64,000 nucleotides of DNA, taken from NCBI GenBank assembly GCA_022225965.2, contig JAKJXP020000101.1, forward strand, positions 106,913 to 170,912, in the 5' to 3' direction. Made by a program: the position numbers and the translations under genes. This document shows positions 9,015-33,104 of the stretch, in pieces. The number at the start of each line of letters is the position of its first letter. Position 1 is the stretch's first letter. The notes below the pieces were generated by a model that saw nothing but the letters and a program-made list of their open reading frames with translations, made no database searches and had not been told where the DNA came from. This DNA comes from Diatrype stigma (Eukaryota > Ascomycota > Sordariomycetes > Xylariales > Diatrypaceae).

Positions 9015-9031
9015 GCCGGTTTGGCCGAGTG

Positions 9032-9088
9032 GTGAGCTACCTTTCTGACTTTCTTTTAACTGACCAGTGTTACTAACAACCTTCATAG
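9032..9088 (+). other. Spliceosome-like intron inside tRNA D-loop
   Basis: 57 nt with GTGAGC at the 5' end, a perfect TACTAAC branch-site motif at 9071-9077 and CATAG at the 3' end, with 12 nt from the branch adenosine to the AG. Removing exactly this segment restores the D-loop GAGTGGTTAA. It has no obvious bulge-helix-bulge pairing across its ends, which the tRNA splicing endonuclease would need. The form matches the protein-gene introns in this window. Confidence 0.75.
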
Positions 9089-9108
9089 GTTAAGGCGATG
9101 GTTTTAAG

Positions 9109-9127
9109 TAACTACAAGTTGCAAAAA
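9109..9127 (+). other. Canonical tRNA intron (position 37/38)
   Basis: 19 nt between G37 (9108) and position 38 (9128), just 3' of anticodon TAA. Intron bases GTTG can pair with the anticodon, as usual for introns removed by the tRNA splicing endonuclease. Confidence 0.8.
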
Positions 9128-9175
9128 CACCATTATCGAGAGATGCGCAGGTTCGAACCCTGCAGCCGGCATATA

Positions 9176-9180
9176 TTTTT
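9176..9180 (+). terminator. RNA polymerase III terminator
   Basis: Run of five T residues 5 nt after the tRNA discriminator base, the usual Pol III stop. A further TTTTT-containing stretch follows within 20 nt. Confidence 0.75.
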
Positions 9181-10570
9181 GAATATTTTTATCTTGATTT
9201 TGCTTTGTTTTTATATTCTGTCTTTTCTTTTCTCTCCCTTTCTTTCCTTCGTGGTTGATCCCGTTGTTCGTAATTGCAAGGCCATGTGTCATAAGTTATC
9301 TTTTCTCAGAAGGAGTATACCAGGGTAGGCATTCTTCGCGATCTGGTATGAATCCTAGCAGCATCTACGTCGTAGTCGTACCTGTCTGTAAGTCCCGGGG
9401 ACTGGCGTCCATTATTAGACAGGCCGTGCAGCTGCCGTGGTATGCTATGAGCCTCTCCCAGAGGAGCTTCTACCAGAGGCTGGGGCATACTTAGGTAACT
9501 ACTCACCTACCTTCTTACTTACATCAATGCTGCATGCACATGGCGCTGAACATGTATGCGTAGGCGCCCGGTCCAAAGCCAGGCTCACACATGACAGCAC
9601 TAAATCTTGGTTAAATCTTGGCGCAGATGGGGAAACCATTCGAGTTTGCACTTGGGGGGTTGAAAGGGGAGTGGGGGTGGAGGGGGAGAAGGGGGGGTTA
9701 ATGCTTCGGTGGCAGACATACTCTCTGGCGACTCGCTTTACAGCGGCTCGAGGGGCAACTGGCTAAGAAAGGTTAATCCAACCTCCCACTCATTGCGAAT
9801 GTTACACGCTGAGGTTACAGACGGTTCGGATTGACCTGTTGCGCTGCTCTGAGGGAGGTTTGCCGGCTGCATGACTTGGATTCATTGCTCCTTATTACGT
9901 GGCCGCAACTGGCGTCCTGCCAGAGATACCAGAAGTGTATATACCCAGGTGCCTAGGTAGGATACAGATGTAGTCACGTGGTGGGGGAGAACTCCAAAGT
10001 AACCACGGAACCGTTTGATGAAGTGAGTGTCTATATGATGCTAGAGGCTTGCTATACTTCGGCTTCCCGGGGTACCCAAGTCATGGAGGGTACTGGTTAG
10101 CCAGAGACAAATGGGGATCGATTTGGTATCAAGTAGATTCATCAATTAGACACGCGAGATGTACACCTCTACCAGCTATATATATGTCTCTTGTCAAGTC
10201 CGTCCACCCTCTTTACTTCATCTTATTAATCGCTTAGGGAATCGATATGTTGCAGGCCCTAGTGAGGTATTATGTACGAGGTTGATATGTTCCGAAGATG
10301 AAAGGTGTGTACGTGAACTGGTGTGAAGCTCTGATGGCTGGGCCTCCTGGAAGGTATCTTTTTTCTTTCGACACCTTCGCTGAGTTCCCGAGGTGATTAG
10401 AAAATTACGTTAAAGCATCCGCTGGTATAAACAATCCGTCATTCATGCCTGTTAAACCGTCGTTCGCTGAGACCCCCATGGGAAAAGTATGCCGGTCCCC
10501 GCCGAGCTGTTTGCGTTTGGAAGAGAATAGACCGCGTCTAAAGATGTGTTGGTGGTTTTGGTGGTATTGG
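9181..10570. other. Intergenic, with a G-rich cluster
   Basis: No gene seen. At 9654-9697 five G runs of 4-7 bases in 44 nt (GGGGGG, GGGG, GGGGG, GGGGG, GGGGGGG) could form a G-quadruplex on the + strand. The right end is the 3' flank of the membrane protein gene. Confidence 0.5.
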
Positions 10571-28490: not shown

Positions 28491-30920
28491 TCATGCGAGA
28501 AGCCCGAATAGCAAGCTTGTCCTCTTCCAGTACTCCTGAGACGACTTCGTGATCCTCGTCCGGGCATCTTCCCCTAAGCCCGTCCTAGTAAATATATCTT
28601 CGGCAAATTTCGTGAGGGCGCCATCGTCAGAGGTCGCATCGGCCCTGAGACAGTGCTGCAGGAGATGTGCATCATAAAGCCACTGAATCAGCAGGTCTGG
28701 ACTGCTCTGCTGGGGTTCTGCATCTGGGTCTGCCTCGTCCTCGCTCTTGTTCCCGTTGCCGTCAGAGCCTTCTTCTCCCTTGCCATCCTTATCGCCTTCT
28801 CCCAACGCTTCGTTATCGTCAGGAGATTTGGCCTTGTTGCCAGCATTTTCTTCCCCACCGCTGGACGCGGACGCGGACTCTAATTCCTTGCGCCATGCGA
28901 GGACAAGGCGGTTGCTGAAAGTTTGTTTCAGGATAGCCACAGCAGCCGGGGTCCAAAGATCCAACCCGGCGTCTCCCATAGACATGACAAGGTTCCGCAG
29001 TAACAAAAACGTGCCCGGTGAAGGATGCGCAGGCAGAGCTGGTTCGCCCTCCCACAAACCCCTGCCAACAACCCGTCTCCTCGCCAGGACCGTCGAACTA
29101 TAGTCTTCGATGGGTGAATCAGACACGTGGTCTGCTAAGCTCTGCTGCAGCGATGCCACTTCACCGATGCCGAAGGTCTTGAGATCATCTAACTTAGGCA
29201 GGCGGCTGCGAACGTCTCTCAGGACCCGTAAAATATACATGGCAATGTGGCCTCGATTGGTGCTGTCCTGTTGTCCTTGCCATAAAGTAGCAATCTGCTC
29301 CTCCAGGTCCCCGAATGCTTTCCTCAAGCCGTCATGGAGTCGTTTGTGCAAGAGCTGCGGATCATCCTCGCTCAGCAACTGTTGCCGGGTGTCGATCACG
29401 TCTTCGTCTTCGATCTCCTCCACGTCGTTGTCCCAGCGCTGGCGTTTGAGCTGCTCGACAAGATCACCGACCTCATCGATCAACTGGTACCACGACTGAT
29501 AGCATGTGACGGCCCGAGATACAGCGTCGTTCCTACCGTATAGGCGAGATATGACTTCGTGGGCGACATGGTTGGCGCCATTGGAAACATCCATATCTAG
29601 CATCTCTTCGCCCCAAAGACTGCTATGCCGCTCGGTCAGGCCTACTTGCCACGATTCAAGGGTCGCTGCCACCTCCGAACCCACGAGCCTCAGCTTGGCG
29701 ACTTTCGTATCCAAGACGGCTATGAGGCGGTTGTTAACCGCTTCGCGCAACCCGCTAAGCATAGTGGATGGGTCGAGGCCTCGGGGTTTTCCGCCATCCC
29801 TTATCCAATACTCGAGCACACTAGTCCGAAGGTTCACAATGGCTTTGAACTCGGACATATGCTCGAGAGTCTTACCAAGGCCAGAAAGCAAGGTCTTGCA
29901 GCCGTTCTCGGCCCACGAAGTGAGCATCTCCCTCGCCTGGGCACCCTCTATGTCATCGTGTCGTATGAAAGGGGTGAAGTACTGGATCTCTTCGCCGCAC
30001 CATTTCTCGTACAGGTCCAGCCGCAGGCCTTCGAGTGCTCTCAGGGATTCATCTGCCAGCAATGGCTCCCTCTTCAACGATGCCAATGCCTCGGAGAGCT
30101 TGTGGGGTACGAGCGCCTGTACATCTAGAAGCGTCTTTGTATAGAGAAGCAGCCCCTGCAGGACGTTGGCCGGGCCCTTCTCCCTCTCGTTCTCTTCCGA
30201 TTCGAACTCAAGCAGCACAGCTTCCCTCCTGACGCTGAGGAAATGGCGTAGAACATCCCTAGCCCCGGAGCTAGACGCCAGACTGTAAGCGCACAGTACT
30301 TTGAGTATATCGGTCTGCTTCGCCGAATCTCCGGGCTTTTCTAGAATCTTCTCGACGGCCCTGAGCAGCCTCCTCCGCAGGCTCCCGAGGCTCTTCTTCG
30401 CCGTCTCGATTTCCTCTCGGGCCTCTTCGTCCACGCAGGGGTTGGCCGAACCGAAGCTGGAGACGAGCAGCCGGCTCAGGATGAGGGTCTTCGCGGCCAG
30501 CACCAACCGGTCCCCTTTGCCCTCGAGACCGCCGCCCTTCAGCAGCCTGGCGACGGCGAGCCTACAGGCCTCGAGCAGCCGCAGCCTCGCAGCCTGCCCG
30601 GCCTCCGTGTCGACAGCGCGCCGTCGGCGGAAGGCGCCCAGCCCCGCGACCTTGGACCCGATGGCTGCCCGCCCGCACAGGCCCCCCATGTCGCCCAGGA
30701 TGTCCTGGGCATCGCGCATATCCCGGCGCATCTGGACGATGGTGTCGGCAGTGCCGAGCAGGTCGCGGTAGTTGTTGCCGACCTGGGTGCGCAGGCGCGC
30801 GGACTTCTCGTCGATCTGGACATGGAGGGACTTGTGCACGGCTCGGATCTGGGGCAGGGTGTAGGAGGTGAATATCTGGCTCGAGTCGGTAAGATTCGAG
30901 GTGTCCGGGGTGTTGGCCAT
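28491..30920 (-). CDS. cog1: Conserved oligomeric Golgi complex subunit 1
   Basis: Intronless, 809 residues, ATG at 30920. The N-terminus (IFTSYTLPQIRAVHKSLHVQIDEKSARLR, then VGNNYRDLLGTADTIVQM) is the conserved Cog1/Vps51-type coiled-coil region. The rest is helical, as in tethering-complex rods. An acidic Gly/Asp/Glu insertion (about residues 690-730, GEGDKDGKGEEGSDG) precedes the C-terminal helices that end SSQEYWKRTSLLFGLLA. COG tethers intra-Golgi retrograde vesicles; subunit 1 bridges the two lobes. Reading as one exon through 2.4 kb supports the model. Confidence 0.92.
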   Translation of the reverse strand: MANTPDTSNLTDSSQIFTSYTLPQIRAVHKSLHVQIDEKSARLRTQVGNNYRDLLGTADTIVQMRRDMRDAQDILGDMGGLCGRAAIGSKVAGLGAFRRRRAVDTEAGQAARLRLLEACRLAVARLLKGGGLEGKGDRLVLAAKTLILSRLLVSSFGSANPCVDEEAREEIETAKKSLGSLRRRLLRAVEKILEKPGDSAKQTDILKVLCAYSLASSSGARDVLRHFLSVRREAVLLEFESEENEREKGPANVLQGLLLYTKTLLDVQALVPHKLSEALASLKREPLLADESLRALEGLRLDLYEKWCGEEIQYFTPFIRHDDIEGAQAREMLTSWAENGCKTLLSGLGKTLEHMSEFKAIVNLRTSVLEYWIRDGGKPRGLDPSTMLSGLREAVNNRLIAVLDTKVAKLRLVGSEVAATLESWQVGLTERHSSLWGEEMLDMDVSNGANHVAHEVISRLYGRNDAVSRAVTCYQSWYQLIDEVGDLVEQLKRQRWDNDVEEIEDEDVIDTRQQLLSEDDPQLLHKRLHDGLRKAFGDLEEQIATLWQGQQDSTNRGHIAMYILRVLRDVRSRLPKLDDLKTFGIGEVASLQQSLADHVSDSPIEDYSSTVLARRRVVGRGLWEGEPALPAHPSPGTFLLLRNLVMSMGDAGLDLWTPAAVAILKQTFSNRLVLAWRKELESASASSGGEENAGNKAKSPDDNEALGEGDKDGKGEEGSDGNGNKSEDEADPDAEPQQSSPDLLIQWLYDAHLLQHCLRADATSDDGALTKFAEDIFTRTGLGEDARTRITKSSQEYWKRTSLLFGLLA

Positions 30921-33104
30921 CTTCGGTTCTCGAAAAAGGTCTTAGCTGGATGACGACGTCCAATCTGGTGGTTGTCCGTGACGCATTGGGCGCTAAGCTC
31001 GGTACGGGCCAGTTCTACTCAACGGTTCCTGTGTTCTGGAATGCCATGAGCTGTGTGTGATGAGGTAATTATGCTGTGTTTACTGCTGTATCGTTTGCTC
31101 TTGGATTAGGCTGAAATGATGATGATGATGAGGGGAGAATGTTAGCAGCACCTGCATCTGATCATCTGTTCTAGCCACCTGCAGTTTGGGTTGCGACAGC
31201 CCGAATACGTACTTAGGTAAGTATGTATGTATGTACTGTACGTATGTACTACATGTATGTATGTAGGTAGCATCAGTGAGGTAGCATAGCGTGGTAAGCC
31301 CAACCAGCCTACACTAACTCCTTAATTAACGCAATTTCATTGGTGGGGAGAGCTATCAGGGATTCAGGGACCTGATCAGGGACCTCTCAGGGACTTAATC
31401 AGGGATCCCGACTGTGCCCCCGGCTGCTTCCTTGCAGATCGCAGGTATGGAGACGTTAGGTAATATTGTATATGTATATCTTGTACAACGTATTCACGGC
31501 AACGCCTTCTTCAAGAACGCGAGACTGCGTAGTAGAAAAGTGCAGCTAAACTCCTTTCAACCGGCACTGGGAATCACAGATCAGCTTCTGCCACCTTCCG
31601 ACACGAGAAGTGGGAGAAGTGGGAGATCGAATGCCAATCAAGATACGGGTCGACCATTGGAGCAGACCTACCTACAGTAGCAGAGTAGGTAACTATGTAT
31701 GTAGGTGAGTGGGTGACACGAACGAAGACTCCTCCAAGTCGACGAAGCAGCTGGGCTGGGTGTAAGACGGAGCTGGATGAAGCCGCGTTGATGAGAAATC
31801 CACCTACCGATGCATAGTCGGAGTCTGAAAGACGGAACCATGATCGACACATGCAGGAAGCCGGGACCATGGCTAGCATTGTTATTGACAATTAACTAAT
31901 ACGTATCCGTATCCCCACTGATCCGATCGAGCAGAGGGCGCCACATGCAACTACCGGCGACCAACAACGGCATGGTGGAGGAAGAGGCTACCTAGAGCTA
32001 GCGAAGTCGACCACCGAGACAGACTTGACAGGTGAAGTGCAAGGGCCAGCGCCAAAGAAGCCGTCATCCATCACCCGTCATTCTTCAGCCATCATCCATC
32101 AGCCAAGAATCCATCTACATATGCAGGAACTGCTAACTATGTAGAAGCATTGTCGTGTTACAACAACGTACTACCCAAAGCAACCAGACGGTGTTGGCGA
32201 TGGGGTTCCGCCAACCTGCATTGGGAATTTGCATGGGGGAGAGGAGCATTCTGGAGACCTGGCAGGCAGGAGACCAACCATGCCTAGTACCATCCGGTCC
32301 ATTCCTCCCCACGAGTCGTCGTGGTCGGTAGCCTACCTACCTATGTAGGTATTCGGTTATTGTATTCAGTTATTACTGGAGCACAGGTACACTACCTGGT
32401 ATTATACATGGTGAGTTACATGTAGTAGGTAAGTTGTTGGTTGTGTACTTCGTAGTCTTCCACCAGACCGGTCACACATTGTGACATCGTCGGGCTGTGG
32501 CGGCCCCCTACCACGACTATATGCCACTACTACAGTACTATATACTACCTCGCTAGATATGTAGTGGTGATAGCATGTCCAAGTACTTCAATGTAGCGTC
32601 TCGGCCGACAAGCACAACCTCGGGACACTTCTCGAAACTATGGAACTAGACTTACATAGTAGCAACCACCCAACCAACCGGCCCAACTTCATGACAAGAA
32701 CACTTATCCGGCCGTCCCACTGCCGCATCAGCGCACCAGTACTATTAAGTAGGTAGCTACCGACCAAGCACCCATGCAGCCATGCCACCCGAGCACCACC
32801 CCTCATTGTCCTCAGCTTTGGATCGCCCTGGCGCCCTGGCGATGATTTGACATCGTCCACAAGACTGGGCCGTGTCTAACTACCTTACCTTATTTTATCT
32901 GGGCGGCCGGGGGTGTAGCGGCGTGCGCTTGTTATTTAGATAGAGGCTAAGGCCCCTAGTACTCGTCATTTATATTAGTAAAACATCCCTTTTCTCTTAC
33001 TTCACTACTACAGTACTTGTTTAATCACTTATAAGGAGACTTCCAAGTTCGCAGCTCATACGTTACGTTACGTACACGACCAGAAGACTTGGTACAGGTT
33101 TGCC
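30921..33104. other. Intergenic COG1 / LaeA-like methyltransferase
   Basis: 2.2 kb between divergent genes. No gene seen. Notable are TATGTATGTATG/TAGGTA tracts at 31215-31270, repeated CAGGGA units at 31355-31405 and CATCCATCA units near 32065-32100. The right end is the methyltransferase promoter. Confidence 0.5.

Follow-up and report, generated by a model that had tools for sequence, protein, structure and literature searches.

Can a tRNA gene carry, inside its D-loop, an intron of the kind found in protein genes and still supply a working tRNA? The question is raised by positions 9015-9171 (+) of a 64,000-nt stretch of the Diatrype stigma genome, referred to below as the window. The locus is a class II tRNA-Leu(UAA) gene, from which two stretches have to be taken out, one of 57 nt in the D-loop and one of 19 nt at position 37/38, to give an 81-nt tRNA (Table 1). 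In the spliced molecule 23 of 23 standard cloverleaf pairs are formed, the conserved bases that were checked (T8, A14, G18 G19, A21, T33, G37 and TTCGAAC) are present, the anticodon is TAA, the discriminator is A73 and the variable region is 13 nt long; the D-loop labels G18 and G19 follow the Sprinzl numbering.

A search of the window alone with the Rfam tRNA model matched 9015-9171 over the complete model (1-71 of 71; score 36.5 bits, cut-off 29). A covariance model for leucine tRNAs, made with four spliced sequences from the D. stigma genome that include the spliced tRNA-Leu(UAA), matched 9015-9170, also over its full length (1-80 of 80; 66.1 bits), and its alignment places one long insert in the D-loop and another in the anticodon loop. 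When the tRNA is aligned with Leu-CAG, Leu-CAA and Leu-AAG of the same genome, 91 of 92 cells are paired and 16 of the 23 pairs show changes on both sides; the mature tRNA-Leu(UAA) therefore falls among the leucine tRNAs of class II. The initial annotation had proposed a tRNA-Leu(UAA) with two introns at these coordinates, and the sequence, both models and the cloverleaf pairs agree with it.

Table 1 Features of the tRNA-Leu(UAA) locus of Diatrype stigma (positions in the window)
Feature	Position	Strand	Basis or remark
Exon 1: acceptor 5' strand, D-stem 5' strand, D-loop through G18	9015..9031	+	model and pairing
A box TGGCCGAGTGGT	9022..9033	+	intact; first GT of the intron replaces the displaced bases
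57-nt GT-AG spliceosomal-type intron, D-loop, G18/G19	9032..9088	+	GTGAGC, TACTAAC, TAG
Branch motif TACTAAC	9071..9077	+	branch A, then 12 bases
Exon 2: remaining D-loop, D-stem 3' strand, anticodon stem 5' strand, TAA, G37	9089..9108	+	
Canonical tRNA intron, 19 nt, position 37/38	9109..9127	+	
Exon 3: anticodon stem 3' strand, variable arm, T arm, acceptor 3' strand, A73	9128..9171	+	
B box GGTTCGAACC	9150..9159	+	128 nt start-to-start from the A box
Two T5 runs (9176-9180, 9186-9190), Pol III terminator-like	9176..9190	+	just 3' of the gene

The D-loop insert starts with GTGAGC, contains TACTAAC and ends with CATAG. Four registers, from 9031-9087 to 9034-9090, yield an identical spliced RNA, and GT-AG ends are found in 9032-9088 only. 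For introns in fungal U3 genes a survey gives as rules a GTRWGT donor, an RCTRAY branch, a branch-to-acceptor distance of 6-36 nt and a YAG acceptor (PMC5832005). The branch ACTAAC, the distance of 12 nt and the TAG acceptor of the D-loop insert all fit these rules, while the donor departs from GTRWGT in one base, the last, with the GT...AG ends retained; in the survey itself GTRWGT was present in 88 of 136 donors, nearly all the others having one mismatch (PMC5832005).

Chance resemblance to splice signals was rejected. The probability of finding the signals at one of the four registers, taken as the product of their frequencies in the window times four, is 3.4e-6, or 7.9e-8 when the full TACTAAC is demanded. 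Out of 127,886 57-mers on the two strands of the window a single one carries all three signals, namely the D-loop insert, and shuffling of the insert's letters gave 2 passes in 2,000,000. With signals that chance would produce at about 3e-6, and with the tRNA restored by removal, the proposal of a spliceosomal-type insert at this exact junction stands, and the insert is best read as a true spliceosomal intron, which the spliceosome would remove. It had also been described as exactly like the introns of nearby protein genes. A rule-based scan of the window, a rough test, gave 21 candidate protein-gene intron rows (two introns appearing in two frames each), and several of them are similarly signalled; to that rough extent the likeness holds. 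A repeated, introner-like intron family was rejected as the source, a DNA search of the genome with the 157-nt locus having returned the locus itself only.

Other tRNAs with a spliceosomal intron in the D-loop were sought in the genome with the pattern CTAAC...AGGTTAWNGC, which gave 8 matches against 10 in the reversed control. Three of the seven matches beyond tRNA-Leu(UAA) (L112-L114) fit neither tRNA model, and the remaining four (on C1, C18, C98 and C146) are similar strings that, judged from the strings alone, perhaps represent a repeat.

An intron in the D-arm need not be spliceosomal, and one alternative is that both introns are cut by the tRNA splicing endonuclease, as apparently occurs in a red alga, with the GT-AG signals owed to coincidence or ancestry. 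There is precedent for the site: D-arm tRNA introns are reported for Cyanidioschyzon merolae, with the tRNA endonuclease as the presumed enzyme, and for the nucleomorph of Guillardia theta, with an unknown mechanism (PMC4090602, PMC3978253, PMC9602550). In a crude scan for a bulge-helix-bulge, which allowed both orientations and bulges of 2-4 nt and serves as a lead only, three of the four registers of the D-loop insert reached three of the four central pairs, which speaks for the endonuclease, and none of the four reached the full 4-bp central helix, which speaks against it. For the 37/38 intron, by comparison, a 4-bp helix TTTT/AAAA with the anticodon loop is possible, although the example given by the scan has no inner helix flanking it. 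The remark in the initial annotation that no bulge-helix-bulge spans the ends of the insert is borne out as far as this crude scan reaches. Position is the better argument, because the eukaryotic enzyme is described as finding its splice sites by their distance from the tRNA body and as not always needing the helix (PMC4090602), and the D-loop insert lies far from 37/38. The insert is probably not a tRNA-endonuclease intron, and cutting of both introns by this enzyme, which also has the chance match of about 3e-6 to spliceosomal signals against it, seems highly improbable.

The tRNA-Leu(UAA) gene shares with canonical eukaryotic tRNA genes an intron at 37/38, here of 19 nt, and differs from them in its D-loop site, its mRNA-type signals and the lack of a full bulge-helix-bulge core there in the crude scan. 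With the ectopic D- and T-arm introns of C. merolae and the G. theta nucleomorph it has in common the D-arm location, sometimes combined with an anticodon-loop intron. In C. merolae, however, removal seems to hinge on bulge-helix-bulge motifs and the tRNA endonuclease, whereas the insertions of G. theta are 3-24 nt long and of unknown mechanism, in contrast to the 57 nt with spliceosomal signals in D. stigma (both after PMC4090602).

The D. stigma genome may itself offer the closest parallel. The U6 gene on contig C103 (C103:111380-111550, minus strand) is the sole U6 among the matches listed (47 of 2374 candidates scored); it corresponds to positions 1-63 of Rfam U6 at 56.1 bits, and the genome-wide search aligned the same stretch full length at 53.5 bits. 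By eye, the gene appears interrupted after GGCCCCT by 55 nt that run GTAAGT...TATTAACC...TAG and are followed by GCACTAAGGATGACACGC, the exon boundaries being set against the U6 sequence; relative to that sequence the exon has apparently one extra base, and the fetched stretch stops short of the U6 3' end. The branch A of this insert is followed by 11 bases, and its branch motif, ATTAAC, is one base off RCTRAY. U6 of D. stigma thus appears to hold a 55-nt GT-AG intron. U6 is a Pol III gene, and tRNA-Leu(UAA) would then not be the only Pol III RNA of the genome that a spliceosomal intron interrupts, the one in U6 apparently being of near-equal length and layout.

Introns in fungal U6 genes are known, that of Schizosaccharomyces pombe among them (cited in PMC5832005). 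Like those of fungal U6 and U3, the D-loop intron is short, has GT-AG ends and a branch motif close to its acceptor, and lies in a small structured RNA; it differs in sitting in a tRNA gene that has internal promoter boxes and also an endonuclease-type intron. Apart from U3 and U6, the 2017 survey knows of no small structured RNAs that are frequently interrupted (PMC5832005). The introns reported from ascomycete rDNA and Rhodotorula U2 snRNA are likewise of mRNA type and lie in non-coding RNA genes, the difference being the class of RNA (PMC2586383). In the titles and the starts of abstracts of the open-licence literature no report of a spliceosomal intron in any tRNA was recognised; spliceosomal introns are known in non-coding RNA genes and, as far as searched, none has been described in a tRNA.

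The A box, the B box and the T-run terminator of a Pol III gene are all present at the tRNA-Leu(UAA) locus. As had been claimed, the A box survives the insertion; the GT at the start of the intron fills the displaced positions, so that the DNA still reads a whole box. Two properties may act in the other direction, an A-to-B spacing of 128 nt, which we counted against easy expression, and a T4 run inside the D-loop intron at 9054, which could weaken Pol III elongation.

Spliceosomal splicing is ordinarily coupled to Pol II, and one could suppose that the GT-AG intron belongs to a Pol II transcript running across the locus and that the tRNA is excised from the spliced Pol II RNA, with no use of Pol III. 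The intact A and B boxes, the former even reading over the intron junction, and the T5 runs close behind the gene argue against this, as does U6, a Pol III gene that in D. stigma also seems to bear an intron. We regard a Pol II origin of the tRNA as very unlikely.

Prediction of the precursor fold gave mixed indications. The donor GU and the acceptor AG are mostly paired (unpaired probabilities 0.03 and 0.13 for the donor, 0.13 and 0.01 for the acceptor), which in the model would count against easy splicing, and the branch motif is predicted to be largely open except for its first two bases (unpaired 0.32 and 0.51). The cloverleaf stems are still predicted to form in the precursor, with pair probabilities of 0.66-1.0 for the acceptor stem, 0.67 for the D-stem, 0.88-0.97 for the anticodon stem and 0.90-0.98 for the T stem.

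The remaining alternative is that a spliceosomal intron killed one copy of the gene, which is now a pseudogene, and that a different Leu-UAA gene decodes UUA. According to a 2014 review, when a eukaryotic tRNA gene has a short insertion in its D- or T-arm, it is mostly one copy out of many synonymous ones and is supposed to be a pseudogene, the nucleomorph and the red alga being exceptions (PMC4090602). On the other hand, the exons of tRNA-Leu(UAA) are undamaged (23/23 pairs) and the splicing signals of the D-loop intron are complete. Much turns on whether the nuclear genome holds a second Leu-UAA gene. None was found with five patterns and a weak BLAST-type search in the 49-Mb, 224-contig assembly, which is possibly incomplete, two matches on C137 being unread; the uniqueness rests on patterns, and several matches were judged from the matched string alone. 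Genes for Leu-CAG, Leu-CAA, Leu-AAG and Leu-UAG were found in the same assembly.

The spliced 18-nt D-arm has no exact match in the genome and 41 matches with up to three mismatches (29 in the reversed control), of which 30 were cut out as loci, a further 5 were retrieved and 6 were judged by the 18-nt string only; the five one-mismatch matches are Leu-CAG (three), Leu-CAA and Leu-UAG. A pattern joining D-stem, UAA anticodon and B box gave 4 matches with a gap of 20-50 nt (control 0) and none with a gap of 51-81 nt, and together the two ranges allow for a 37/38 intron of any length from 0 to about 59 nt. One of the 4 is tRNA-Leu(UAA); the other three are not recognised by the leucine model and were rejected as tRNAs. 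As a positive control the pattern was relaxed to accept any leucine anticodon and then gave 15 matches (control 6): tRNA-Leu(UAA), four other leucine genes (two CAG, one UAG, one CAA) and 10 others, three of these tested with the leucine model and seven judged by string. It missed two known genes, a Leu-CAG (L035) and a Leu-AAG (in L022), the introns of which are too long for the gap.

A looser pattern running from TTAAG to the B box stayed at chance level, with 30 matches against 32 in the control; all strings were read and 4 were fetched, and the leucine-like ones besides tRNA-Leu(UAA) are a relic without a D-arm (L098) and one on contig C159. A further Leu-UAA pattern gave 10 matches against 17 in the control, among them tRNA-Leu(UAA), one on C84 that had already been matched and the two unread ones on C137. 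The B-box pattern alone (624 matches against 457 in the control, the first 100 of them listed) was not used for counting. The BLAST-type DNA search with the spliced sequence returned only its own locus and is weak, since a single candidate passed and the other leucine genes were missed as well.

Three of these loci deserve mention on their own account. L098 (C42:125120-125320, positions 77-161 of the locus) is an AT-rich leucine-tRNA relic with its 3' half largely intact and its D-arm missing, probably a decayed leucine pseudogene, and its existence in this genome lends the pseudogene alternative some support. L095 and L096 (on C29 and C84) are mutually similar, AT-rich sequences that fit the Leu-UAA pattern and not the leucine model; they are perhaps copies of a repeat.

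ARAGORN predicted two other Leu-taa genes, both on C159. This contig is AT-rich (33.5% GC in L020) and its tRNAs, of many isotypes, lack introns; inspection by eye of two 3-kb loci from it revealed no recognisable mitochondrial protein gene. To judge from its composition and tRNAs, C159 looks mitochondrial, and its Leu-taa tRNAs would not serve the cytosol. Another locus of the contig, L018, has a long repetitive open frame (2-1417, table 4) with acidic repeats rich in Ser, Asp and Pro.

Attempts to find the tRNA-Leu(UAA) locus in relatives gave little: the first 19 nt of the gene had 5 matches in a contig collection, in bacterial-labelled records and none of them a tRNA by eye, and scans of viral contigs gave 0 matches.

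UUA codons are in use in the window: ten open frames together contain 14, half of which (7) lie in a COG1-like gene, the only one of the ten frames trimmed to verified coding ends. Its protein, encoded at 28491-30941, is confirmed by homologues, the nearest named ones being three records of Monosporascus (a genus of the Xylariales) at 71-73% identity, with three other records higher at 77-89%. Decoding of UUA requires a UAA anticodon. As no other nuclear gene with this anticodon was found, the tRNA-Leu(UAA) gene should be essential, and it is probably functional. Of the two possibilities that the initial annotation had left side by side, a functional gene and a killed copy, the uniqueness check that it called for favours the former, with the two unread C137 matches in mind and with splicing itself a matter of inference. 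That the gene is a dead copy appears rather unlikely.

The reading that we prefer, at a probability of roughly three in four, is that of a functional, probably essential, single-copy Pol III tRNA-Leu(UAA) gene, the D-loop intron of which is spliceosomal and the 37/38 intron of which is removed by the endonuclease. Pol III would transcribe the gene from the intact A and B boxes, the spliceosome would take the D-loop intron out of the precursor, as in U6 snRNA, and the tRNA splicing endonuclease and ligase would then remove the 19-nt intron, the order of the steps being our proposal. It seems likely that an essential single-copy tRNA here depends on two unrelated splicing machineries that act one after the other, first the spliceosome and then the tRNA endonuclease with its ligase.

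If this is true, tRNA-Leu(UAA) of D. stigma would be, as far as searched, the first known case of a spliceosome-dependent tRNA, and the decoding of every nuclear-encoded UUA codon would hang on spliceosomal processing of a Pol III transcript, in contradiction to the textbook view that the mRNA-splicing machinery is not needed for an essential tRNA. It would also mean that an internal Pol III promoter does not bar spliceosomal introns from entering a gene and staying there, the A box being kept by the intron's first bases, and it would provide a natural test of the spliceosome on a Pol III transcript other than U6.

Genes of this kind may be easily overlooked. With default settings ARAGORN missed tRNA-Leu(UAA) at 9015-9171 in the window, and with introns allowed it drew a Gln structure at the locus, which we rejected as spurious. 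In the whole-genome Rfam tRNA search the gene is absent among the 44 matches listed (63 of 1714 candidates scored), and a search that misses a known gene is unsuited to counting tRNAs; the same model applied to the window alone finds it. A discrepancy of another sort concerns L033 on C15, where ARAGORN reports Ile(tat) for a tRNA at 1494-1590 of the locus; the sequence reads as Leu-UAG and matches the leucine model at 68.9 bits.
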